64,000 bases of DNA from NCBI RefSeq assembly GCF_001583435.1, contig NZ_CP013251.1, positions 1,943,617-2,007,616 on the forward strand, written 5' to 3'. A program made the position numbers and the translations under genes. Positions 14,976-27,317 of the stretch are shown here, piece after piece (position 1 is the stretch's first letter; each line of letters starts with the position of its first letter). A model generated the notes under the pieces. It ran no database searches and was not told where the DNA came from. It saw only the letters and a program-made list of their open reading frames with translations. The stretch is from Endozoicomonas montiporae CL-33 (GTDB lineage: Bacteria > Pseudomonadota > Gammaproteobacteria > Pseudomonadales > Endozoicomonadaceae).

Positions 14976-15011
14976 GCTGTCTGAAAACGTCACACGACGT
15001 TGGGAATGCCC

Positions 15012-15218
15012 ATGAGTGATCTGAAGCAGTACAAGAAGCAGAGAAAGAAGCTGAAGCAGGAAATCAAATCAACAGAGGCGCACCTGAAGCGACTGAAACA
15101 CGAGTTGCGGTCTCTGAGAGAAGGTCAGCAGCATCAGGTGATTGAAGAAGAGCTGGATCAGTTGATGGAAAAACCATCACTGTTTAAAAACCTTATGAAG
15201 CTTTTTGATAAATCATAA
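15012..15218 (+). CDS. Small coiled-coil protein, unknown
   Basis: 68 residues, highly charged (KKQRKKLKQEIKSTEAHL), predicted as one long coiled coil with a short hydrophobic tail. ATG 15012 is preferred over ATG 15006 because a GGGA SD lies 7 nt upstream. It ends just before a strong terminator. Unknown function. Confidence 0.6.
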   Translation: MSDLKQYKKQRKKLKQEIKSTEAHLKRLKHELRSLREGQQHQVIEEELDQLMEKPSLFKNLMKLFDKS

Positions 15219-15245
15219 GTACTTAGTTATTTAGTTGTTTCATTC

Positions 15246-15270
15246 AAGGCAGCCATTCGCTGCCTTTTTT
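15246..15270 (+). terminator. Rho-independent terminator
   Basis: Stem AAGGCAGC / GCTGCCTT with a 5-nt loop and TTTTTT tail, ending the Na/Pi-small protein unit. Confidence 0.85.
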
Positions 15271-15328
15271 GTGTCTGCACGACGCTCATTGTCTATTCTG
15301 TGGTTGGACAATTCCAAAGTGTTATCGC

Positions 15329-15891
15329 ATGTTCGACACAAAAAACGTTGTAGAAACCTATAATACCAATTCCATCTTCTAAACATGAATTACGCAGTTA
15401 TTTCAAACCACTGGCTCTGCGTCGGAACTCCTCGCAATAGTCAGCTATTACTCGTCGTTCTTCCTTGCCCAGCGATTTGAAATAGCTTGCTCATGATCAT
15501 ATTTAGAAAATGGAATTGGTATAACCAGAATAAAGATCATCACGCGTTTCGTACCGATATGGAACGATATTCGCTGCTAACATGGCTGCAAACAGTGGCA
15601 GATAAACGAGTGCTTGATCTTGCCAGCGGGGCGGGTAATTATAGCCGGATGTTTTGTCGGTTGGGTGCTCGGCAAGTCATTGGCATTGATGCGTCGGCTG
15701 AAATGGTGGCAGCAGCCAGAAAGTACACCCCTGAAGTAATGCCTGTCACTTATTACAACCAATACTGTGGACAGTTTTCTGAGAATTCGATACTGATGCA
15801 CCAAGGCCTGTGCCACAAGGGCCGGGATTTAATACGAAGCCTTGGGTTTAATCCCCGCAGCTTGCTGCGACGTACCCAAGAGCTAACCTGA
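15329..15891 (+). pseudogene. Class I SAM methyltransferase, split by a MITE and truncated
   Basis: Removing the 158-nt miniature element at 15364-15521 together with one TAA duplication restores one frame from ATG 15329: MFDTKNVVETYNQNKDHHAF, then the SAM-binding motif I VLDLASGAGNYSR and motif II VIGIDASAEMV. Family sequence stops near 15740, and what follows to the stop at 15891 is not methyltransferase. So the gene is both interrupted and 3'-truncated. It may have been an integron cassette or a chromosomal gene at the edge of the mobile region; I cannot tell which. Confidence 0.75.
15364..15521. mobile_element. 158-bp MITE with TACCAATTCC ends
   Basis: The inverted ends begin TACCAATTCCAT and extend about 30 nt with few mismatches (TTCTAAACATGA on the left, TTCTAAATATGA on the right, reverse complemented). 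A TAA target duplication flanks it (15361-15363 and 15522-15524). No coding capacity. Its insertion in codon 12 of the methyltransferase gene is exact. The internal sequence can fold. A degenerate end of the same family is at 24577-24612. Confidence 0.8.
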
Positions 15892-15908
15892 TACCCCGCA
15901 GTTTGCTC

Positions 15909-17400
15909 CTATCTCTTTAACACATCTCCTAATCTTGTCTTATCCTTTTTTCAGATGAGTCAAGATTGTGCTTCCACTTCCTCCTGAACAATGGGCAGAA
16001 CTTACTTTTGGGTGCGCTGATTTGGGTGATCAACGTCGTACAAAAAGGCTGGTGCACACAGCAGCGGAACTATCCGCTCATACGGGTTCGTCATTGGCTG
16101 AGTCTTGTGAAGGTGACCTGTCCTTATTGGTTGGCGGTTACCGCTTAATTGAAAATGAAGCTGTTAAGCCTGAAGCCATTGCCGAGGCTGGCTTTCAAGC
16201 AACTCTGCATGCTCTTCAGGACTCTGAACTTATTCTGGCTCTTGAGGATTCAACAACCCTTGGTTACAAACATTCCGCAAGGTCAAAGCTTGGTGATTTG
16301 GGTGGACCGAAAGACGCCATAACCAAGGGATTTTGGGCTCACTCTGTTATGTTGCTGGATGCCGAAACAGAACGGACTTTGGGGCTCATTGACCAGCAGC
16401 GCTGGATCAGAGATGACGATCAGCGTGGCCAAAAGCATCAACGCAAACAGCGACCTTACGAAGAGAAGGAGAGCTTTAAATGGCAGCAGTCTTCAGAAAA
16501 TATTGAGCGCAGGTTGGGTGAGGCTATGGCTAAAACGATCAGCGTCTGTGACCGTGAAGCGGATATTTTCGAATATACCCTCTACAAGCTTAAACATGAC
16601 CAGCGATTCATCGTCCGGGCAACACAGAACAGAACCCTGATTGATAACGACAAACTACTGTTTGATGCCGTTGCAGAAACGCCTGTACTGGGTAGCTATA
16701 CCGTTATAATCCCGCAGCGTGGTGGCAGAAAAGAGCGAAAGGCCACCCTGCAAATAAAGAGTAAAAGCGTCACCATTCAATCACTACAAAGACCCGGAGG
16801 TCGGCTTCAACCAATCAAGGTTAATGTTGTTACAGCACAGGAAATCAAGAACGACGCTGAAGATAAGCTGTGCTGGATTCTTTTAACCACAGAGCCCATT
16901 GCGACATTTGAAGACTGTCGTAAGGTGCTACGGTTTTATGAACTCCGTTGGCGCATAGAAGAATTTCACAAAGCTTGGAAAACAGGTGCTGGTGTTGAGC
17001 GTCAGCGTATGCAAAGCGCAGATAACCTTGAACGCATGGCCGTGATACTGATGTTTGTGGCTGTTAGGCTGATACAAATACGCGAGGCGCTCATGCTGCC
17101 TTATGTGCGGACTGATGACGAAGTGTGGCATGAAGAAACACCAGCCAATCAGGTAGTCAGTGATGATGAGTGGCAGGTGCTTTGGTTAAAGATGGAAAGT
17201 AAAAAGTTACCAGACAAGCCGCCATCGTTGATTTGGTTGTTCCAAACCATTGCCAAACCAGGTGGCTGGTGCAACTCCAAACGCACAGGTCGCCCTGGTT
17301 GGCTGGCAATTTGGAAGGGCTGGGCAAAGCTACAGATTGGCGTCGAGGTCTGGCGCATGGCTCGCCAGTTCTGGGGTGTAGAGATGTGTTAAAGAGATAG
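15909..17400. mobile_element. IS4-family (IS50/Tn5-like) insertion sequence, intact
   Basis: 1492 bp. The perfect 20-bp terminal inverted repeat is CTATCTCTTTAACACATCTC at 15909-15928, matched at 17381-17400. Its length and pattern recall IS50 ends. The 10-bp target duplication CAGTTTGCTC (15899-15908 and 17401-17410) is perfect. Both ends and the transposase are intact, so the element looks recently active. Confidence 0.93.
15968..17392 (+). CDS. IS4-family transposase, Tn5-like
   Basis: 474 residues from GTG 15968. Domain order follows Tn5 transposase: N-terminal DNA-binding part (LGDQRRTKRL), DDE catalytic core with the first Asp in ALEDSTTLGY, the second in CDREADIFEY, and the Glu in the YREK-like WRIEEFHKAWKTG block, then a C-terminal dimerisation part. 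Complete and uninterrupted. It acts in cis on its 20-bp ends. Confidence 0.93.
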   Translation: MLPLPPEQWAELTFGCADLGDQRRTKRLVHTAAELSAHTGSSLAESCEGDLSLLVGGYRLIENEAVKPEAIAEAGFQATLHALQDSELILALEDSTTLGYKHSARSKLGDLGGPKDAITKGFWAHSVMLLDAETERTLGLIDQQRWIRDDDQRGQKHQRKQRPYEEKESFKWQQSSENIERRLGEAMAKTISVCDREADIFEYTLYKLKHDQRFIVRATQNRTLIDNDKLLFDAVAETPVLGSYTVIIPQRGGRKERKATLQIKSKSVTIQSLQRPGGRLQPIKVNVVTAQEIKNDAEDKLCWILLTTEPIATFEDCRKVLRFYELRWRIEEFHKAWKTGAGVERQRMQSADNLERMAVILMFVAVRLIQIREALMLPYVRTDDEVWHEETPANQVVSDDEWQVLWLKMESKKLPDKPPSLIWLFQTIAKPGGWCNSKRTGRPGWLAIWKGWAKLQIGVEVWRMARQFWGVEMC

Positions 17401-17467
17401 CAGTTTGCTCCGGGGCTTCGCTCCTCCACCCGACGCCGCCGGCGCGACTGAACCAGGCGTTATGCTC

Positions 17468-17767
17468 CTAAATCACCTGTTCAGATGCTTCCCAAAATTT
17501 CGTATATGCTTCTTCAAGTTTTGGTTGCAGGTGTTTAATCAGAATGTCGTGTAAATCTATCATTATTCCAAGTCTGCTTTTGTCATCAAGTTCTTCTGAA
17601 TATCGGTTAAAAAATTCATTGCAATATTCAAGAATTTTTCTCAAATGTTGAGAGATAAGCTTTCTGCTTCCGATTATCGCCACATCCGCCTCTGGATTTG
17701 TCGGGTGTGGAAGCTCAATAACTATGGGATTGATAGATTTTGTATATCGAATGTAAGGGTAGAGCAT
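17468..17767 (-). CDS. Small protein in cassette region, unknown
   Basis: 99 residues, AT-rich gene unlike the GC-rich core genes around it, ending 3 nt from the GTTATGC core of attC 1. It runs against the attC orientation, so it would need its own promoter. It contains helical, acidic sequence (KILEYCNEFFNRYSEELDD) and no motif I know. A stop codon directly precedes the ATG, but the miniature element at 17781 begins only 14 nt upstream and may have removed its promoter or 5' end. Confidence 0.5.
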   Translation of the reverse strand: MLYPYIRYTKSINPIVIELPHPTNPEADVAIIGSRKLISQHLRKILEYCNEFFNRYSEELDDKSRLGIMIDLHDILIKHLQPKLEEAYTKFWEASEQVI

Positions 17768-17780
17768 TTCTCTCGCCTAG

Positions 17781-17985
17781 GAGGTTGTCCGAGAATAGCG
17801 CCCGTAGCGAGGATGGCAGAAAATTGAGGATGAAAAAGCGGTTTTGTAAGGAGAATAGCGAGCTATTTGACGAACAAAAGCGATTTTTCAGACCAATTTG
17901 CTGCCACCGCACGACGGCATGGATGCCAGAGCTAGGGCAACGCAGGAGCAGTTGCCGGAAGGGCAGTCTATTCTCGGATAGCCTT
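17781..17985. mobile_element. 205-bp MITE, copy A
   Basis: Inverted ends GAGGTTGTCCGAGAATAG on the left, and AAGGCTATCCGAGAATAG read from the right, flanked by CTAG on both sides (17777-17780, 17986-17989). It is the inverted counterpart of the 205-bp element at 24337-24541. CTAG duplication suggests mobilisation by an IS5-type transposase (inference). Confidence 0.8.
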
Positions 17986-18108
17986 CTAGGTATTGTTACG
18001 CATGGTCTAAATGAGCAAACTGCTTTACAAAACTAGATTGGTCATTAGTACGATATTAAATGTAAGAAGATGTTAGAACTTAGCAATAGAGAAAAAAGCT
18101 TAATTAGT

Positions 18109-19507
18109 GGGTGTGCTGCCTAATTAATGTACTGGAGGAAGGTTGTGTGTGACAGGGAATCCGTAACGGCTCATTTTTGACCAAAATGCATTCCAGGATC
18201 CGGATGTGCAAACCAGTGCCCTTAACGTCAGCAACATCGATGCTCCCTGCTCCTTCCAGCGCATTCCTGAACGGCACATTCTCTGTTTCACCAATGTTTT
18301 ACAGCCTGCTTCAGTCACTCCCGAACCTATCGGCAAGTTCTGCTCTCTCGCTTGCGGATAAATCATCTGATGCCAATGATTTTTGAAATACGTTCTGGCA
18401 CTGATTAACTTTTCCAGAGACGCAGTACGGTTGTTGCCTGGCTTTGCACTATCAAGCTCTTCCTGAAGTCTTTTGGCTGCACCCTTTTCATGTTTCAAGT
18501 CGTGTAGTTTCTGCTTCAACCATGCATGCCTCTCCTGTGATGCTTTTTTGCCGGGATAAAGAGCCTCAGCAGCCCCGGCAACATATTCAGAGACATGGTA
18601 AAAGTCCAGCACCTGCACGGTTGTAAAGGGCTCTAAAAAAGTCCAGTTATCCGCTGCTCCGTCAGCAATTCCCACATAAACTGCATCAGGATATCGCGCT
18701 TTAACCTTGTTGATTTCTCTTGAAAATCTGCTTTTAAAGGTTCCCTTGCCGTATTCTGGTGCCTCTGCACAATAGATGGTATGGAGCCGCTCCCCTTCGT
18801 CATCATAAAGGCTTATCGTGCCACACATGGCTTCACGATAGCCTTCGTAATAAAGAAGGTTGGCTCCATCAAGGCCGATGCCTATTGTTTTTACTGCCTT
18901 AGGCAAATCGGGTATGTCGTATGCCCATTTTTCTTCTTTTGCCTGAGCGATGCTTGCTACGACATCAGCCAGATCTCTAAGCGTCGAACGACTACTCTTG
19001 CGGCCATGGTTTTGTAGTAAGTCTTCTTCTACCTGGGGAGCAGCCATTTGTGCATATTTCCAACTGACGAGCCGGGCAAAAGCAGGAGTCGAGTTGACAA
19101 TGATTCGCGCATTCTGATCCAGGGGACAAAAGGTTTCACCACCCTGACTGCTTTGATATACATAGCGTGCCAACTTAACGGAACCCCATGAAGTTTCATA
19201 CACTTTGGGTTCTTTTTTGTGCTTGCTGCTCATGGTAATCCCGCCTACTTTTATAGGCGAACCATCGGTGTCCATGGCTTCAAGCTGTTTTTCTACCCCA
19301 AGCACGCCTGCTTCGTTGAGGCTACCCTGAAGAGCAGTCTCAAAGTCAAGCATTGAGTCACCATGCTGGATGGTAATCAGGATCTGCGTTTCGTTGTTTT
19401 CTGAAGAGATAACTTGAGCGGGCATATGGTGAAGGCTGTAAGATTTTCAATATCTTAAAATAGACAGAAAATGTTGTTTCTTCCTACATTAATTACCGCT
19501 TACACCC
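18109..19507. mobile_element. ISKra4-family insertion sequence, complete
   Basis: 1399 bp bounded by related ends starting GGGTGT, both sharing the block TAATTAATGTA about 12 nt in. It is flanked by a perfect 8-bp duplication TAATTAGT (18101-18108 and 19508-19515). The single transposase gene lies on the minus strand and is intact. Confidence 0.88.
18124..19425 (-). CDS. ISKra4-family transposase
   Basis: 433 residues. It has the family's central DDE-type core: the first Asp in GIGLDGANLLYY, the second in YVGIADGAADNW, and the Glu in IGSGVTEAGCKTLVKQRM. VLDFYHVSEYVAGAAEAL and CRSGMRW are typical of this group. Complete. It differs in sequence from the ISKra4-type transposase at the right edge of the window. 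Confidence 0.9.
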   Translation of the reverse strand: MPAQVISSENNETQILITIQHGDSMLDFETALQGSLNEAGVLGVEKQLEAMDTDGSPIKVGGITMSSKHKKEPKVYETSWGSVKLARYVYQSSQGGETFCPLDQNARIIVNSTPAFARLVSWKYAQMAAPQVEEDLLQNHGRKSSRSTLRDLADVVASIAQAKEEKWAYDIPDLPKAVKTIGIGLDGANLLYYEGYREAMCGTISLYDDEGERLHTIYCAEAPEYGKGTFKSRFSREINKVKARYPDAVYVGIADGAADNWTFLEPFTTVQVLDFYHVSEYVAGAAEALYPGKKASQERHAWLKQKLHDLKHEKGAAKRLQEELDSAKPGNNRTASLEKLISARTYFKNHWHQMIYPQAREQNLPIGSGVTEAGCKTLVKQRMCRSGMRWKEQGASMLLTLRALVCTSGSWNAFWSKMSRYGFPVTHNLPPVH

Positions 19508-19922
19508 TAATTAGTGGAATGCTGTATAATCCTGATGCAGAAGGACTGCCTGAAGATAGATTGTTTGCGAAGAAACTTTGCCATCAAATCAATACTAACT
19601 TTGACAATAAAGAGAAAAATCTTTTAATTCAGAAGCTTTTTTCAAAAGCGGATGTAACTACACAATTAAATGGTAATTTTTGTTGCGATTACGGATACAA
19701 CATTGAAGTAGGTAAAAACTTTTACATGAACTTTAATGGAGTAATCCTAGATTGCAGCAAGGTTACTATTGGTGATTATGTGATGATAGGTCCCAATGTG
19801 ACTATTTGTACAGCGGGTCATCCAATAGATGCTAACACTCGCTATACATATTATGGTGGACCCCACTGTCAAGACAGTAAACCAACAAATTTAAGTTAAG
19901 TCCTGGCAGTGGTCCAAAGCCC

Positions 19923-20756
19923 TCATGCAAAGTGAATTGCCTTAGGCGTTTTATAACTCAACGACTGGTGTAATCGTTCAGTGTTGTAAAACTCAAAGTA
20001 TTCATCCAGCCCAGTATAAAGCTCTGGAACAGTCTGAAATTCATGCGTGTACAGCCATTCATGTTTGACGGAGCGCCACAGCCTCTCGACAAAAATGTTA
20101 TCCAGTGCTCGCCCTTTCCCGTCCATGCTGATACGTATTTCCCGTTCCTGAAGAGGTGCCAGAAAATCATTACTGGTAAACTGACACCCTTGGTCAGTGT
20201 TGAATATATCAGGTTCACCTTGTTCCAAAGCTCGACCCAGCGCATGAATACAGAAGTCTGCATCCAGTGTGTTCGACAGCTCCCAGCTGACCACGTAACG
20301 GCTGTACCAGTCAATAATGGCAACCAGATACATAAACCCCTGAGGCATCGGGCAGTACGTAATATCAGTACTCCAGACCTGATTGGGTCTCACAATATCA
20401 ACGCCGTTCAACAAGTACGGGTAAACCTTATGCTCTTTGTTTCTCAGGCTTGTGCCCGGTTTTGGTCCGACAGCCTGTATGCCCATCAGCCTCATAAGTC
20501 GCTGTATACGCTTCCTGTTGACCGGAAAGCCCTGCTCATTCAGCCATGCAGTTATCTTACGACTGCCGTAAAACGGTGTACGTGTATACTGCTCATCAAT
20601 GAGCCTCATCAGATTCAGATTCTCAGGGCTTTCCAAAGCTGGAGAAGCTTGGTAATACCAGCTTGACCTGCTTAACCCAACCAGTTCACATTGGCGCTGA
20701 ATGCTGATCTTCGAGTGATCCGGGTCTATGCATCTCCGTTTGTCATCAATGGACAT
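19923..20756 (-). CDS. IS3 transposase OrfB (integrase catalytic domain)
   Basis: 277 residues. HTH_21-like start (RQCELVGLSRSSWYYQ), then the rve core with DDE residues in VWSTDITY, FNTDQGCQFTS and the Glu of NIFVERLWRSVKHEW. The start overlaps the orfA end, and an A9 run (20763-20771, T9 on the plus strand) lies just upstream, allowing -1 frameshifting to make the OrfAB fusion as in other IS3 elements. Confidence 0.93.
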   Translation of the reverse strand: MSIDDKRRCIDPDHSKISIQRQCELVGLSRSSWYYQASPALESPENLNLMRLIDEQYTRTPFYGSRKITAWLNEQGFPVNRKRIQRLMRLMGIQAVGPKPGTSLRNKEHKVYPYLLNGVDIVRPNQVWSTDITYCPMPQGFMYLVAIIDWYSRYVVSWELSNTLDADFCIHALGRALEQGEPDIFNTDQGCQFTSNDFLAPLQEREIRISMDGKGRALDNIFVERLWRSVKHEWLYTHEFQTVPELYTGLDEYFEFYNTERLHQSLSYKTPKAIHFA

Positions 20757-21030
20757 TGCCAGATTTTTTTTTCAACCAGTCCAGCTCCATTTTAAGCCGT
20801 CCGATCTCCTGATACAGGGGGGCAGTGAGCGCATCTGGATCTACCTCTGGCCGTGCCCTGCCGAAGACTTCTGGAACCCCCTGGAGTAGCTGTCGCTTCC
20901 ACTGGCTAACCTGAACGGCTGCAACTTCGTGTTCGCTTGCCAGCTGGTTTATGGTCTTTTCGCCCTTGTAGGCTTCGAGTGCTACCTGTGCCTTAAATTC
21001 GGGCTTATGTCGTTTTCTTTTTGCTGTCAT
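20746..21030 (-). CDS. IS3 transposase OrfA (HTH protein)
   Basis: 94 residues from ATG 21030, chosen because GGAGGG sits about 6 nt upstream; the frame opens 7 codons earlier without an SD. HTH_Tnp_1 fold: KRKRHKPEFKAQVALEAYKG, then ASEHEVAAVQVSQWKRQL, and a C-terminal leucine zipper-like GRLKMELDWLKKK that ends at the slippery A9. Confidence 0.9.
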   Translation of the reverse strand: MTAKRKRHKPEFKAQVALEAYKGEKTINQLASEHEVAAVQVSQWKRQLLQGVPEVFGRARPEVDPDALTAPLYQEIGRLKMELDWLKKKSGNVH

Positions 21031-21106
21031 GATTCCCTCCTGCAGGGTCATCTTACAGCCAGAAAACTTAACTTAGCTACCTGTCCAGTTTATGGGGTCC
21101 ATCATA

Positions 21107-21606
21107 TACCAAAGCCAGCGTTGGTTCGATTTATCATGAACATACGACCACTGCTCATCTAGCTCAGCCTCTTGGCAGACAAGCCCTAAATGAATAATTG
21201 CATCTGACTTGAGATCAATAGTTTGAATATTTGGGTTGACCTTTACCAGACCGCTTTCTTTTTTTTTAGAGTCTTTATTACTGTTGTCTTGCTTATTCCG
21301 AGTACTTTACTTGTATCCCTGATTCCGCTGCCATTTATTGCCATATCGATGATTTTTTCTTTAACGCCAGGCTCACAGGCCTTGTAGCGATATTCAAGCA
21401 TGAAGGTTTTGATTTCACATTTGTCATTACAGCAATAGTATCGTGGAACATCATGAGTGCTGTATCCGAAAGGCCGAACTTGGTTACTGCCACATGTTGT
21501 ACAGAGGACTTGCGTAAGGCACATTTTTAAACCGCATTTTTCAAAGTTGCCGAATGTCGTATTTTAGCAGACAGGGCTAGAATCACAGAACTGTGCCACT
21601 ACCCAC
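21107..21606 (-). mobile_element. IS1-family remnant, insB truncated by IS3 copy 1
   Basis: insA is whole (21243-21524). The start of insB reads on from about 21240 down to 21107 as VNPNIQTIDLK...DEQWSYVHDKSNQRWLWY and is cut there by the IS3 end. The right boundary near 21606 is estimated and its end sequence is uncertain. Confidence 0.75.
21243..21524 (-). CDS. IS1-family InsA protein
   Basis: 93 residues. An N-terminal zinc-ribbon-like part with CxxC pairs (CTTCGSNQV and YYCCNDKC), followed by the HTH region GIRDTSKVLGISKTTVIKTLKKK. In IS1 the InsA protein represses and, by frameshift, fuses with InsB. The final KKKK region is the expected slippery site (A-rich). Because insB is cut, no active transposase can be made from this copy. 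Confidence 0.85.
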   Translation of the reverse strand: MCLTQVLCTTCGSNQVRPFGYSTHDVPRYYCCNDKCEIKTFMLEYRYKACEPGVKEKIIDMAINGSGIRDTSKVLGISKTTVIKTLKKKKAVW

Positions 21607-22144
21607 GCACTCTTCCAAAAAAATCTTGAAATAGAAGAAGCCGGAAAACAGAATAAAGATGATGTTCATTCTACAATCTGCTAAAGTCAGCGCAATTTTT
21701 ATACTTTGATGTAAATAGTTATGAATAAATTAACTGTAAACAACTACAAGGAAGATAAATTTTATCCAAAAGTAGTTGAAGCCGTTGAAAATTGTCTCAA
21801 AAGGAAAAAGTACATAACACCAATTAATGTGTTTGTTTCAATGGAGCTGCTAGATAAAAATGAGTTTAACAGGTGGAAGAGTGGCTCTGTTCCTTATTTA
21901 GAAAAAGTTATAAAGTGTAATTTAAGTAAGGCATCACGAATCTTACGTTTAATCGGTTTTCATTGTCATGATTTAAACATGAAACCATCAAATACTGCAT
22001 ATAAAGGTAAACATGGTTTTCTTCGATTTACCAAAACTGGAGAGCACAGGCTGGAAGAGGTTTATTCTCGCAGTATGGTGGACCCCACTGTCAAGACAGT
22101 AAACCAACAAATTTAAGTTAAGTCCTGGCAGTGGTCCAAAGCCC

Positions 22145-22976
22145 TCATGCAAAGTGAATTGCCTTAGGCGTTTTATAACTCAACGACTGGTGTAATCGTT
22201 CAGTGTTGTAAAACTCAAAGTATTCATCCAGCCCAGTAAAGCTCTGGAACAGTCTGAAATTCATGCGTGTACAGCCATTCATGTTTGACGGAGCGCCACA
22301 GCCTCTCGACAAAAATGTTATCCAGTGCTCGCCCTTTCCCGTCCATGCTGATACGTATTTCCCGTTCCTGAAGAGGTGCCAGAAAATCATTACTGGTAAA
22401 CTGACACCCTTGGTCAGTGTTGAATATATCAGGTTCACCTTGTTCCAAAGCTCGACCCAGCGCATGAATACAGAAGTCTGCATCCAGTGTGTTCGACAGC
22501 TCCCAGCTGACCACGTAACGGCTGTACCAGTCAATAATGGCAACCAGATACATAAACCCCTGAGGCATCGGGCAGTACGTAATATCAGTACTCCAGACCT
22601 GATTGGGTCTCACAATATCAACGCCGTTCAACAAGTACGGGTAAACCTTATGCTCTTTGTTTCTCAGGCTTGTGCCCGGTTTTGGTCCGACAGCCTGTAT
22701 GCCCATCAGCCTCATAAGTCGCTGTATACGCTTCCTGTTGACCGGAAAGCCCTGCTCATTCAGCCATGCAGTTATCTTACGACTGCCGTAAAACGGTGTA
22801 CGTGTATACTGCTCATCAATGAGCCTCATCAGATTCAGATTCTCAGGGCTTTCCAAAGCTGGAGAAGCTTGGTAATACCAGCTTGACCTGCTTAACCCAA
22901 CCAGTTCACATTGGCGCTGAATGCTGATCTTCGAGTGATCCGGGTCTATGCATCTCCGTTTGTCATCAATGGACAT
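22145..22976 (-). pseudogene. IS3 OrfB, frameshifted copy
   Basis: Same as OrfB of copy 1 except that two bases (TA) are missing near 22237, in the segment equivalent to 20017-20018 of copy 1. The frame changes after VPELY, so the protein ends at 250 residues and loses its last 30 or so, after the DDE Glu. This copy is probably inactive unless supplied in trans by copy 1. Confidence 0.88.
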
Positions 22977-23250
22977 TGCCAGATTTTTTTTTCAACCAGT
23001 CCAGCTCCATTTTAAGCCGTCCGATCTCCTGATACAGGGGGGCAGTGAGCACATCTGGATCTACCTCTGGCCGTGCCCTGCCGAAGACTTCTGGAACCCC
23101 CTGGAGTAGCTGTCGCTTCCACTGGCTAACCTGAACGGCTGCAACTTCGTGTTCGCTTGCCAGCTGGTTTATGGTCTTTTCGCCCTTGTAGGCTTCGAGT
23201 GCTACCTGTGCCTTAAATTCGGGCTTATGTCGTTTTCTTTTTGCTGTCAT
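22966..23250 (-). CDS. IS3 transposase OrfA, copy 2
   Basis: 94 residues, identical to copy 1 OrfA except Ala to Val (GCG to GTG codon) in DPDxLTAPL. Start ATG 23250 with the same GGAGGG SD. It ends at the same A9 slippery run. Confidence 0.88.
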   Translation of the reverse strand: MTAKRKRHKPEFKAQVALEAYKGEKTINQLASEHEVAAVQVSQWKRQLLQGVPEVFGRARPEVDPDVLTAPLYQEIGRLKMELDWLKKKSGNVH

Positions 23251-23354
23251 GATTCCCTCCTGCAGGGTCATCTTACAGCCAGAAAACTTAACTTAGCTAC
23301 CTGTCCAGTTTATGGGGTCCATCATACAGTTTTGTATCTACACGGAAAGAGTAG

Positions 23355-23415
23355 TCCTAACAAATGGTTCCAAGGGACCGCGCCTGCGGTGGCGCCCTTG
23401 AATCAGGCGTTAGCC
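23355..23415 (+). other. attC site 2 (integron cassette recombination site)
   Basis: 61 bp from TCCTAAC to GTTAGCC. Between the cores, CCAAGGG pairs with CCCTTG, with an extra unpaired base on one side, and the inner arms (GCGCC, GGCGC) form the stem of the folded bottom strand. The end AATCAGGCGTTAGCC is classical. The upstream cassette gene stops at its first base. Plus orientation, matching the cassette gene. Confidence 0.88.
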
Positions 23416-23458
23416 ACATATATAGAAGCTGTTGCTTACCACATATCAAATGTTATTT

Positions 23459-24235
23459 TTAATACATGGTTCCTTCACTTTCAAATTTAAATTTTGCTTT
23501 ACTACTTAACTTGTTTTTAAATCTAGAATAACAAATTCTCAAGAGTTCTTTGGCATCCATATTTTTTGGATTTTTTTCAAGAACCTTTATTGCACTTGAA
23601 TAGGCATTGTTAACACTTTGTTCTGTAATATTATCATCCGACGTTGAAGAAAAATATCTTGAAAAATATAAAACTGATGCCTCATAATTATGTGATAAAA
23701 AGCTGCTAAAGGCAATTTCATAAAGAATTGTATTATAATTATTTATAGTGAAATTGTTTTGATAGATATTTAAAAACTTTTCAGCTACTTTAATAGCAGC
23801 TTCCAGGTTACGAAGATTTCTAAAAGCAACAGCTTTTAATAAATAGCTATAGCCGTTATCGACTCCTTCAGGTAAACTGGCATGTATTAAAACTTGTTGC
23901 CAACTGGCAAAGTTTTTATATTCACGTGCCTGCTTTAAAAGATCTTTGCCCTCTTTGTACCAATCACTACTTTGTTGTTCATAAGTATTTAAGGAAGAAA
24001 GTAAGCTTATCATTGATATCGTTCCTGCATCAACAATACTAGGGAGAGTGAAGGGCGAGTAAAAGCTGTTTGAAGTTGGGGCTATTGGCATTTTGCAGTT
24101 AGGACAGTGACTACATGCTTCAGTGATTTCTTTACCGCAGTATGAACAATTCGCTGCATTCACGCTCTGAACGGTTAAGCCTGATAAAATGAACAGAACA
24201 GTGTAAAAACACAAAGCATAATTGAAATTGCACAT
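23459..24235 (-). CDS. Secreted zinc-ribbon/TPR-like cassette protein
   Basis: 258 residues, AT-rich. N-terminal signal peptide-like segment to about residue 28 (ending VNAA), then a double zinc-ribbon CxxC pattern (CSYCGKE, CSHCPNCK) and a helical repeat-like C-terminal region. It lies between attC 2 and the broken attC 3 but on the opposite strand to the attC polarity, so it must use its own promoter. Function unknown. Confidence 0.65.
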   Translation of the reverse strand: MCNFNYALCFYTVLFILSGLTVQSVNAANCSYCGKEITEACSHCPNCKMPIAPTSNSFYSPFTLPSIVDAGTISMISLLSSLNTYEQQSSDWYKEGKDLLKQAREYKNFASWQQVLIHASLPEGVDNGYSYLLKAVAFRNLRNLEAAIKVAEKFLNIYQNNFTINNYNTILYEIAFSSFLSHNYEASVLYFSRYFSSTSDDNITEQSVNNAYSSAIKVLEKNPKNMDAKELLRICYSRFKNKLSSKAKFKFESEGTMY

Positions 24236-24290
24236 GTTAATTTTTTATACCAAGCTGCCATGTAATGAACACATCATAGCCCTGAATAGG

Positions 24291-24332
24291 CGGCTAAAAA
24301 AGTTTTCCAGCGGACGCGCCTTCGGCACGCCA
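24291..24332 (+). other. attC 3 remnant, 3' end removed
   Basis: Starts CGGCTAAA (degenerate left core), then GGACGCGCC TTCG GCACGCC forms the attC-type stem. The expected right core GTTR is absent because the 205-bp MITE starts at 24337. The sequence before it (TTCCAGC) fits an attC left arm. It is a broken site. Confidence 0.55.
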
Positions 24333-24336
24333 CTAG

Positions 24337-24541
24337 GAGCCTGTCCGAGAATAGTCTGCCCTACCGGCAACTGCTCCTGCGTTGCTCTAGCTCCGGCATC
24401 CATGCCGTCGTGTGGTCGTAGTAAGTTGGTCTAAAAATCCGATTTTGTTCCTCAAATAGCTCGCTATTCTCCTCTCAAAACCGAATTTTTATCTTCAATT
24501 TTCTACGATCCTCGCTACGGGCGCTATTCTCGGTCAGCCTC
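24337..24541. mobile_element. 205-bp MITE, copy B (inverted relative to copy A)
   Basis: Same length and about 85 % like copy A when reverse complemented. Left flank CTAG, right flank CCAG, so the duplication has one mismatch. It cuts into attC 3. No coding capacity. Confidence 0.78.
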
Positions 24542-24576
24542 CCAGTATTTACCGGTGGATAATCGCAGTCAGCAAT

Positions 24577-24612
24577 TATACCAATTCATGTTTAGAAGAC
24601 GGAATTTGTATA
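24577..24612. repeat. Degenerate end of the TACCAATTCC MITE family
   Basis: ATGTTTAGAAGACGGAATT then TGTATA is the reverse complement of the end of the MITE at 15364. Only this end and a short TATACCAATTC remain, making a 36-nt imperfect palindrome. It marks the right edge of the mobile region, 20 nt before napF ends. Confidence 0.55.
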
Positions 24613-24631
24613 ACCTGGCAGTTGGCGGTCA

Positions 24632-25153
24632 TTAACGGCTATGCAATGTGATGGCTTTGTCGTAACAGTCCAGCGAGCATTCACCGCAGCCGGTACACAG
24701 GGCTTCATCAATCTGTATACGGTTGTTTTGAATCTCAATGGCGTCTTCTTCACAAGCATCAATGCAGAAGTCACAGGGCTGGTTCAGGGCGAGCTGACAG
24801 TGACCACTGACCCTGGCGATGGCTTGTATACGACGGCCGTTTTCTTTGTCCAGGGCACCGGTCGGGCACTGATCAACGCACAGGTTGCAGAAGGTACAGC
24901 TACCATAATCCAGTGACAATACCGGCAGGTTTTCCAGTACCGGGTGTTTTTCTTCAGAACGGCGAATCACCCGTTGTGGGCAGGCATCGATACACTGATC
25001 ACAACGGTTACACAGCGCCAGAAAGCTTGGGTTGTCCAGCGCCCAGGGCGGGCGCGGGTAGATCGATTCAGGCAATTCAACCGGTTTGGGTTTTACCAGT
25101 CGCCGAAACAGTGCGCGGCGATTGGGGGACTCAAGCTCTTCATGGGCATTCAT
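24632..25153 (-). CDS. napF: NapF-like ferredoxin-type protein
   Basis: 173 residues with four 4Fe-4S type cysteine groups: CNRCDQCIDACP, CTFCNLCVDQCP, CDFCIDACEEDA and CTGCGECSLDCY. It is cytoplasmic (no signal). NapF normally helps load FeS clusters of periplasmic nitrate reductase, but no nap genes are seen here; it sits behind a TorD/DmsD-type chaperone in the DMSO reductase island. It probably supports maturation of DmsA or a related oxidoreductase. The start is ATG. Confidence 0.85.
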   Translation of the reverse strand: MNAHEELESPNRRALFRRLVKPKPVELPESIYPRPPWALDNPSFLALCNRCDQCIDACPQRVIRRSEEKHPVLENLPVLSLDYGSCTFCNLCVDQCPTGALDKENGRRIQAIARVSGHCQLALNQPCDFCIDACEEDAIEIQNNRIQIDEALCTGCGECSLDCYDKAITLHSR

Positions 25154-26093: not shown

Positions 26094-27074
26094 TCAGCCA
26101 CCAATTTGCGCCAGAGTGGCAGTGCCTCCGGTGTAACCGTTCTGCAAAAAGTGCTTATCCTGCTTCAGTTGCAGGAAGTTCTGAATACGGCTGATCAGTT
26201 CCGGCTGCTGTTCATCGTTCTGCAGCAGATGCCTGAGATCGTAACCCTGATCACCAAACAGGCACAGTTGCAACTTGCCCAGACTGTTCACCCGCAGGCG
26301 GTTACAGTCTTCGCAGAAGTCCGGTGAATAAGGCGTGATCAGGCCAATACGACCACGATAGTCCGGGTGGAAGTACTCCTGCGCCGGACCGGCAGACTTG
26401 TGTCGGGCGACTCTTACCCAGCCGCTTTCAAGCAGTTGATCACGGACAGTACTGCCTTCCAGATGATGCTGGTTAAAGAAATCCTGATTGTCACCGGTTT
26501 GCATCAGCTCGATGAAACGCAGAGTAATGGGTTGCTCTTTAATCCAGTTCAGGAAGTCGGGCAGTTGATCAGCGTTGTGACCGCGCATCAAAACGGCATT
26601 AACCTTGAAACCGGTCATGCCCAGTTCAAACCCTTTGTCGATGCCGCTGAGGGTTTCCTGCAGACGGTTATGGCCGGTAATGGTTTCAAAGCCGCGGGCG
26701 TCCAGGCTGTCAACGCTGACATTGATGGCATCCACCCCGGCTTCCAGCCAGGATTCAATCCGCTGATCCATCTTGTAACCATTGGTGGTCATGGCAACGG
26801 TCTGAATACCGGGAATCTGTTTGATCGTGGTGACAATGCTGTTAAATTCATGACGCAGAGTCGGCTCTCCGCCGGTAATACGCACTTTTTCAACACCCAG
26901 TCGGGCGAAGGCGGTCACCAGACGGCGGATTTCATCCACGGTCAGGGATTCTTTGTGATGGTGCTCTTCACACCCGTCCGGTAAGCAGTAGTTACAGCGG
27001 AAGTTACACAGATCAGTAACAGAGAGTCTTAGATAGGGGAAAGTCCGCCCCTGATTGTCTTGCAAACGTAGCAT
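26094..27074 (-). CDS. moaA: GTP 3',8-cyclase
   Basis: First step of molybdenum cofactor synthesis. Radical SAM enzyme: the N-terminal cluster motif is CNFRCNYC near residue 27, and the C-terminal cluster cysteines are in FCEDCNRLR and KLQLCLFG. It ends in GG (LAQIGG), as active MoaA needs. The start ATG 27074 is preferred over a TTG 5 codons up because GGAAAGG sits 7 nt upstream; 326 residues. This SD is also part of the probable riboswitch. Confidence 0.96.
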   Translation of the reverse strand: MLRLQDNQGRTFPYLRLSVTDLCNFRCNYCLPDGCEEHHHKESLTVDEIRRLVTAFARLGVEKVRITGGEPTLRHEFNSIVTTIKQIPGIQTVAMTTNGYKMDQRIESWLEAGVDAINVSVDSLDARGFETITGHNRLQETLSGIDKGFELGMTGFKVNAVLMRGHNADQLPDFLNWIKEQPITLRFIELMQTGDNQDFFNQHHLEGSTVRDQLLESGWVRVARHKSAGPAQEYFHPDYRGRIGLITPYSPDFCEDCNRLRVNSLGKLQLCLFGDQGYDLRHLLQNDEQQPELISRIQNFLQLKQDKHFLQNGYTGGTATLAQIGG

Positions 27075-27080
27075 CAAACA

Positions 27081-27200
27081 CCTTTCCAAATACGGGAGGC
27101 ACTGACATTTCTGTCAGCACCCTGGTAGCAGCGCGCACATCTTTCTGCTACGGCTTCAGAACCATGCCATGGGTTTAGGCCCGGAAGCTCGGCGCTCTTT
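27081..27200 (-). promoter_or_regulatory. Probable molybdenum-cofactor riboswitch before moaA
   Basis: The leader on the minus strand has several stems: GTAGCAG with CTGCTAC, a CTGACA-GAAA-TGTCAG stem with a GNRA tetraloop, and GCTTC with GAAGC. It ends in GCCTCCC with a short gap to GGAAAGG, which doubles as the moaA SD. This resembles the Moco RNA motif known in front of moaA operons. I recognised it by eye; a covariance search would settle it. Confidence 0.6.
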
Positions 27201-27317
27201 AAAGATAGAGTTGTTACGGGCTATCCTAACCATCTGTCACGGTGATTGCTATATGGAAATGCCGCTTTGTGAAAAAATGTTTATGATATTGTTCGATATT
27301 TGTTGAATTTGTGCGTT

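Follow-up and report, generated by a model that had tools for sequence, protein, structure and literature searches.

Clusters of attC sites lacking an integron integrase (CALIN) are thought to be degraded integrons, and by default IntegronFinder 2 needs two attC sites to call one (PMC9024848). The stretch described here lies between the remains of a methyltransferase gene and a napF-like gene of Endozoicomonas montiporae CL-33, in a window of 64,000 nucleotides of contig NZ_CP013251.1 (the whole stretch of DNA that was analysed, to which positions refer unless another locus is named). It resembles a CALIN in having attC sites and cassettes with no intI nearby, but it carries one complete attC site, below the default of two. 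The stretch is very likely a dead piece of an integron cassette array, which was moved in as an array piece and then cut. This reading is based on one intact attC site, one 3' half and one 5' half, all in the same orientation, at a place where two genomes of the genus carry an intact methyltransferase gene directly before napF. The original prediction of an integrase-less, CALIN-like cassette remnant was partly supported, being right in kind and partly wrong in detail; no integron integrase was found nearby, but the strict CALIN label does not apply in the window because the default asks for two attC sites and only one scores.

The intact site was identified with a covariance model. Its training set was 20 attC sites, taken in six genomes of the family from arrays close to matches for an integron integrase, with the window held out. 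Positions 23355-23415 on the plus strand matched the model with 57.7 bits (E 1.9e-12 over the window, and 3e-13 when the model was run over 15000-24800 with filters off), the next-best match in the window being 12.8 bits; the clear attC that had been predicted here passed the model check set beforehand. The site carries TAAC ... GTTA cores and one extra C in the arms, an extra base in the arms being a typical attC trait, and R''/R' and L''/L' arms with such a base were found by the model at this site only. The closest attC of the same genome, L080:8583-8643, aligned to it over 55 columns with a score of 82, against 30 for the best of 200 shuffles. No attC family was matched in the Rfam scan of the window. 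As a folded single strand, 23352-23415 was equalled by 8 of 200 shuffles on the bottom strand and by 4 of 200 on the top strand, and predicted folding is a weak support. Judged from its sequence, 23355-23415 is a true attC site.

Two further traces, both on the plus strand like the intact site (all three had been predicted in this orientation), were found to be halves and not complete attC sites. The 3' half (L'-R' side) at 17401-17465 is fused to a repeat similar to repetitive extragenic palindromic (REP) elements and ends with a full L'-R'. It aligned to positions 17-87 of an 87-nt attC of the same genome, L080:18532-18618, with a score of 100 (best of 200 shuffles 38), and matched the attC sites of this genome with E 5e-15 (blastn). 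In the covariance model it reached only 10.4 bits (E 3.2 over the window, or 0.5 over 15000-24800 with filters off), so that the attC check proposed for 17411-17465 fails if the model alone counts. The 5' half at 24294-24334, cut at a miniature inverted-repeat transposable element (MITE B), holds R''-L'' only, and its inverse core reads TAAA, not TAAC. It aligned to the first part of a 59-nt attC, L083:8363-8421 (score 62; best of 200 shuffles 32), and blastn matched it in attC sites of this genome at 85-94% over 33-41 nt; the covariance model gave no match over 15000-24800 with filters off. The broken attC predicted at 24291-24332 is confirmed as a 5' part by alignment and blastn, without a model match. 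Neither half stands out in folding (72 and 33 of 200 shuffles were as good), but both clearly resemble, in their letters, intact attC sites of the same genome.

At the left edge, an IS4/Tn5-type insertion sequence (IS) occupies 15909-17400 on the plus strand (domains Dimer_Tnp_Tn5 and Tnp_DNA_bind; ends set by another copy in the genome) and is directly flanked by CAGTTTGCTC at 15899-15908 and 17401-17410. It landed in a REP-like dispersed repeat of about 95 bp with many genomic copies, whose left part lies at 15828-15908 on the plus strand and which, from its genomic copies and consensus context, runs past the IS to a shared CCGGGG. At least 15 near-full and at least 5 partial further copies of the repeat were found among 40 of 92 candidates scored. 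Among 15 loci compared in context, most end on the right with GATACCCCGGAGCTTGCTCCGGGGTAGTTCATT, whereas the window beyond the IS reads CTCCGGGGCTTCG, like attC sites. In the left IS flank, 15880-15910, no attC 5' end or arm was found (score 18, from the duplicated target only; shuffle maximum 25). Because the left flank is the repeat and the sequence to the right of the IS reads as attC, the two are, as far as these junctions tell, fused within the shared CCGGGG, and were so before the IS landed. An attC split by the IS at 15881-17465, with both ends beside it, was accordingly rejected; its half at 17401-17465 stands, and on the far side of the IS lies the REP-like repeat.

The locus itself was compared with those of relatives. 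On the left, 15487-15760 (plus strand; Pfam Methyltransf_25) is the 5' piece of a broken backbone class I methyltransferase gene, and on the right, 24632-25153 (minus strand; Fer4 domains) is a napF-like ferredoxin gene that has homologues at E<=1e-20 in 6 of the 10 genomes of the genus, CL-33 counted. In the relatives G022 and G021, an intact 237-aa methyltransferase gene, homologous to the piece in the window, is followed by the napF-like gene within about 10 bases. Only the first part of the gene is kept in the window, with a MITE near its start, and no convincing candidate for the 3' part was found elsewhere in the genome. Since the methyltransferase gene is truncated here and intact beside napF in these relatives, the foreign stretch spans about 15761-24639. 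No attC better than 15.9 bits (E 0.1) was found in the loci of four relatives (G019 to G022). To the left of the locus, an nptA-like gene and a small gene were matched in G022 only. That the open reading frame (ORF) at 15487-15891, the methyltransferase, is a cassette gene was rejected by synteny with G022 and G021.

Eight mobile pieces were counted within 15363-24545, not including the REP-like repeat and a remnant of MITE A, in agreement with the predicted shredding by at least six insertions. These are MITE A, the IS4/Tn5-type IS, two copies of MITE B, an ISKra4-like IS, two IS3-type copies and an IS1-type fragment. MITE A, near the methyltransferase start (15363-15522), has 26-nt inverted arms at 15363-15388 and 15497-15522; 15361-15525 has a 76% copy in locus L084 of the same genome, and the remnant at 24583-24611 is a 29-nt arm, 93% complementary to 15363-15391. 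The first MITE B copy (17777-17989) is an 87% inverted copy of the second (24333-24545), as seen by repeat comparison. The IS at 18105-19512 (minus strand), with a 433-aa transposase without Pfam match, has a 99.86% copy within the large attC array of this genome (L079 12082-13489); we take it to be ISKra4-like. The IS3-type copies at 19852-21106 (rve and HTH_21 domains) and 22074-23326, both on the minus strand, are 99.76% identical. The IS1-type fragment (InsA, HTH_Tnp_IS1) at 21107-21604, minus strand, has 99.8% copies in loci L084 and L085. At least 452 mobile elements are counted in the CL-33 genome paper (PMC4781883).

Few genes are left in the stretch. The 99-aa ORF at 17468-17767 and the 258-aa ORF at 23459-24235, both on the minus strand, are antisense to the adjoining attC sequence and without known relatives outside this genome: neither has a Pfam or PADLOC family, and the protein search returned only the first ORF itself and, for the second, a same-genome version. 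The second ORF lies inside the cassette 23416-24293, which has an intact site on one side, a half site on the other and its gene antisense. The genes between 17777 and 23354 are putative cassette genes. One, at 19471-19851 (plus strand; Pfam Mac), is a maltose-acetyltransferase-like piece cut by an IS on both sides. The other, at 21721-22073 (plus strand), is cut by the second IS3-type copy, runs in the direction of the later attC and would be a cassette gene by position only; its ORF (131 aa) has 33 related proteins, itself counted. PADLOC gave nothing below E 0.01 in 4 proteins, no phage structural or replication family of Pfam was matched by the 10 proteins of the stretch, and a promoter scan found 6 sites against 3.5 expected. 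Outside the stretch, a molybdenum cofactor riboswitch lies at 27063-27206 on the minus strand (93.1 bits), before a moaA-like gene.

Across the CL-33 genome, at least 44 attC matches were obtained at E<=0.01, a count that may be low because 150 of 1124 first-look candidates were scored. The main array comprises 29 matches in one direction on the minus strand between genome positions 1577969 and 1610031 (L079, L080); many of its cassettes measure only 220-370 bp, some are duplicated, and no IntI was found with it. Further groups contain 8 matches (1680253-1682856), 2 (4658362-4658757) and 2 (3713382-3715081), and single matches occur at 818549, at 2877723 and in the window. No intI gene of a complete integron was found in this genome: no match to TIGR02249 exceeded the cut-off (best 79.6 against 265 bits), the two best frames matched only outside model positions of about 190-236, and a search with the IntI of a relative added nothing convincing. 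Past the expected integrase end of the main array there are IS21-type genes, by ORF reading, followed by a stretch that is unread; the genome paper (PMC4781883) reports assembly gaps at two places, near 1.6 and 2.8 Mbp. The flanks of this array did not match the integrase flanks of relatives, and a plasmid search with attC yielded only short chance-level matches (E 8). The predicted integrase-less cassette remnant is supported by a true attC and by the absence of an IntI over the cut-off in this genome, with the unread stretch near the largest array as a caveat.

Within the family, IntI exceeded the cut-off in 20 of 37 genomes and attC matches were present in 30; 11 had attC matches without IntI over the cut-off, several of these being drafts or having broken intI frames. 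Integron integrases are common in the family and often broken into frames. The relative G022 has a very large chromosomal integron: its genome gives 103 attC matches, the majority of which are gathered in about 80 kb next to an intact IntI (463 bits). In G021, a stretch of 140 nt, presumably part of a group II intron, is repeated without change next to integrase genes, three times and five times (L039, L040). As for literature pairing Endozoicomonas with integrons, PMC11968832 has the word 'integron' only in a reference title, and the word is absent from PMC4781883.

The group of 8 and one group of 2 matches, that is, 10 attC sites, lie in two prophages, the IMG/VR contigs IMGVR_UViG_2687453173_000001 and _000006, and two regions listed as intact prophages in PMC4781883 enclose them. 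These prophage cassettes (L082 8254-10857 and L083 8363-8758) lie near a tyrosine recombinase gene, and their genes are antisense. The tyrosine recombinases (frames of 414 and 428 aa) were considered as cassette integrases and taken instead as phage integrases, as they lie in called prophages. One cassette is common to the large array (L079 15785-16242) and the first prophage (L082 8936-9365): from one core to the other, 371 of 372 bases agree, while outside it the upstream attC sites are of different type and the downstream sequence is unrelated. The second prophage has a diverged copy (L083 7999-8421), which agrees with the array copy in 338 of 385 aligned columns. Because identity ends at both cores and the sequence outside differs, integron-type exchange is favoured; it is the pattern expected from such exchange and well supported by the alignments, since homologous recombination would hardly stop at both cores. 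Beside relatives of the cassette genes in other phages, no attC was found at E<=0.1 in any of 14 loci from other contigs (covering 16 of 18 loci). All of a further 84 loci beside gene relatives (from the best 80 of 483; L260, which is the first prophage, left out) were likewise free of attC at E<=0.5.

Cassettes of this genome, defined between neighbouring attC sites 100-1500 bp apart and oriented by their longest ORF, were mostly antisense: 21 of 30, with 4 in the same direction, 1 without ORF and 4 ambiguous. In arrays sampled from 14 relatives (n=222), 37 were antisense against 158 in the same direction, 10 had none and 17 were ambiguous. Three other ORF definitions agree on the bias, and among the 24 distinct cassettes 16 were antisense, 4 same-direction, 3 ambiguous and 1 without ORF, whereas shuffled interiors averaged 2.1 antisense and 3.7 same-direction. 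Fisher values (1.7e-10 to 1.6e-7) overstate the bias because cassettes are not independent, and one cassette rests on a weak attC site (E 0.05 genome-wide). Integrase loss as the cause was not supported, as G025, of the same genus and without IntI over the cut-off, has 17 same-direction and 2 antisense cassettes; G020, also without it, has 2 and 0. Several of the antisense genes fall into phage protein families (Lar-like, HNH, phrog_419). In this genome, 8 of 17 antisense or ambiguous ORFs between attC sites had PHROG matches at E<=0.001 (17 of 19 distinct ones scanned), or 11 of 20 when three phage-like ORFs just outside attC pairs were added (best E 1.8e-8 or lower). Among relatives such matches were obtained for 10 of 30 antisense ORFs (30 of 34 distinct; those excluded were three containing X and one of 61 aa) and 7 of 20 same-direction ORFs (20 out of 141 distinct ones, namely numbers 1 to 19 and 22 in a random order, two short ones being skipped). 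The idea that antisense cassettes are mainly phage genes was dropped, there being no clean contrast between 8/17, 10/30 and 7/20. Codon-usage scores were not decisive: 10 of 30 antisense ORFs had positive values against 1 of 30 in the same direction, and all others were negative, clear same-direction genes among them. Among the titles and abstract starts found on reverse or opposite cassette orientation, none reports such a bias, which is no proof of absence (PMC11014356, PMC8876359, PMC11023631).

Taken together, the following origin is proposed. The cassettes would once have been assembled by an integron integrase using the attC type still present elsewhere in the genome. A short array piece may then have entered the methyltransferase locus via illegitimate recombination at repeats, replacing the 3' part of the gene, with the REP-like repeat fused to attC within CCGGGG as the probable left edge and MITE sequence as the right one. 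Insertion sequences and MITEs would have cut the piece further. Normal excision of the cassette 23416-24293 should now fail even with a supplied integrase, because one flanking site is without core R', while the intact attC could still partner an integrase acting in trans. Because it is antisense to attC, the gene at 23459-24235 would need its own promoter, for which the scan gives no candidate before the start.

Other origins have to be weighed. One or two circular cassettes inserted directly by integrase at a secondary non-attC target, with later insertions breaking the sites, would also leave one intact attC; other single or paired attC sites exist in the genome far from the large array, and the cassette shared between array and prophage shows that integron-type exchange has happened. 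Such an insertion is nonetheless unlikely, as three attC traces and the lost methyltransferase 3' part suggest a larger piece with a deletion, and the edges are REP-like and MITE sequence with no core-like target. Two prophages of this genome carry attC cassettes, which would suit an arrival with an attC-carrying phage that later decayed; against this very improbable course speak the lack of phage structural or replication Pfam families in the 10 proteins, the position of the locus in none of the prophage regions given in PMC4781883, and the two attC-side genes without relatives outside this genome. Finally, it is scarcely credible that a chance palindrome or REP-like repeat, and no attC, forms the hairpin at 23355-23415: the other two sites do fail the model and folding alone is only mildly unusual, but the E value is 1.9e-12, and at E<=0.01 the same model matches nothing in 7 of the 37 genomes of the family and 103 sites in a genome whose IntI is intact.

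Several points weigh against the origin from an array piece. Just one site passes the covariance model, and an intI could lie in the unread stretch near the large array. On the nptA side, conservation of the locus is confined to G022; G020 agrees from napF rightwards only, and the G019 locus has no DNA match. The genes at 19471-19851 and 21721-22073 are putative cassettes and both run with attC, unlike the other two, and no attC at E below 0.05 adjoins a Parashewanella relative of the latter. No promoter-like site precedes the start at 24235.

A wider view is possible, though doubtful as a whole: cassettes would travel between the 29-attC array and the two prophages by integron-type recombination, mostly antisense and expressed from phage promoters or their own instead of an integron promoter, and the remnant in the window, whose two ORFs next to attC sequence are antisense as well, would be a fossil of this pool. 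Within this view, the sequence comparison gives good support to the exchange with the first prophage, and the antisense arrangement as a working, phage-linked mode is unproven. Since an array and a prophage share a cassette with breaks at the cores, the traffic of cassettes on phages can be tested directly; the antisense bias (16 of 24 against 2.1 expected) raises the question of who transcribes these genes.

Compared with known systems, the groups of 29, 8, 2 and 2 attC sites in this genome fit the CALIN definition better than the window does. Sedentary chromosomal integrons or superintegrons, as in G022, are alike in attC type (87% or less by eye), genus and a long one-direction array; G022, however, has IntI and none was found here, and CL-33 has shorter cassettes, with a median gap of 308.5 bp against 572 bp, most of them antisense. 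CALINs in phages (PMC9892861) are likewise attC clusters in phage genomes, represented here by the two prophages, but same-direction cassettes are given there as most typical, whereas the four callable distinct cassettes of the first prophage are antisense, and the window stretch itself lies outside any prophage. Cassettes of Vibrio superintegrons that are gene-less and have antisense promoters (PMC11014356) are similar in that transcription against the array direction is possible; those described are gene-less, while whole ORFs are antisense here. The fossil in the window is itself ordinary and of a known kind, a clear example of how arrays break down and disperse in a genome rich in IS, with relatives that still have intact integron integrases; the genome with its prophage-shared, mostly antisense cassettes is less ordinary.

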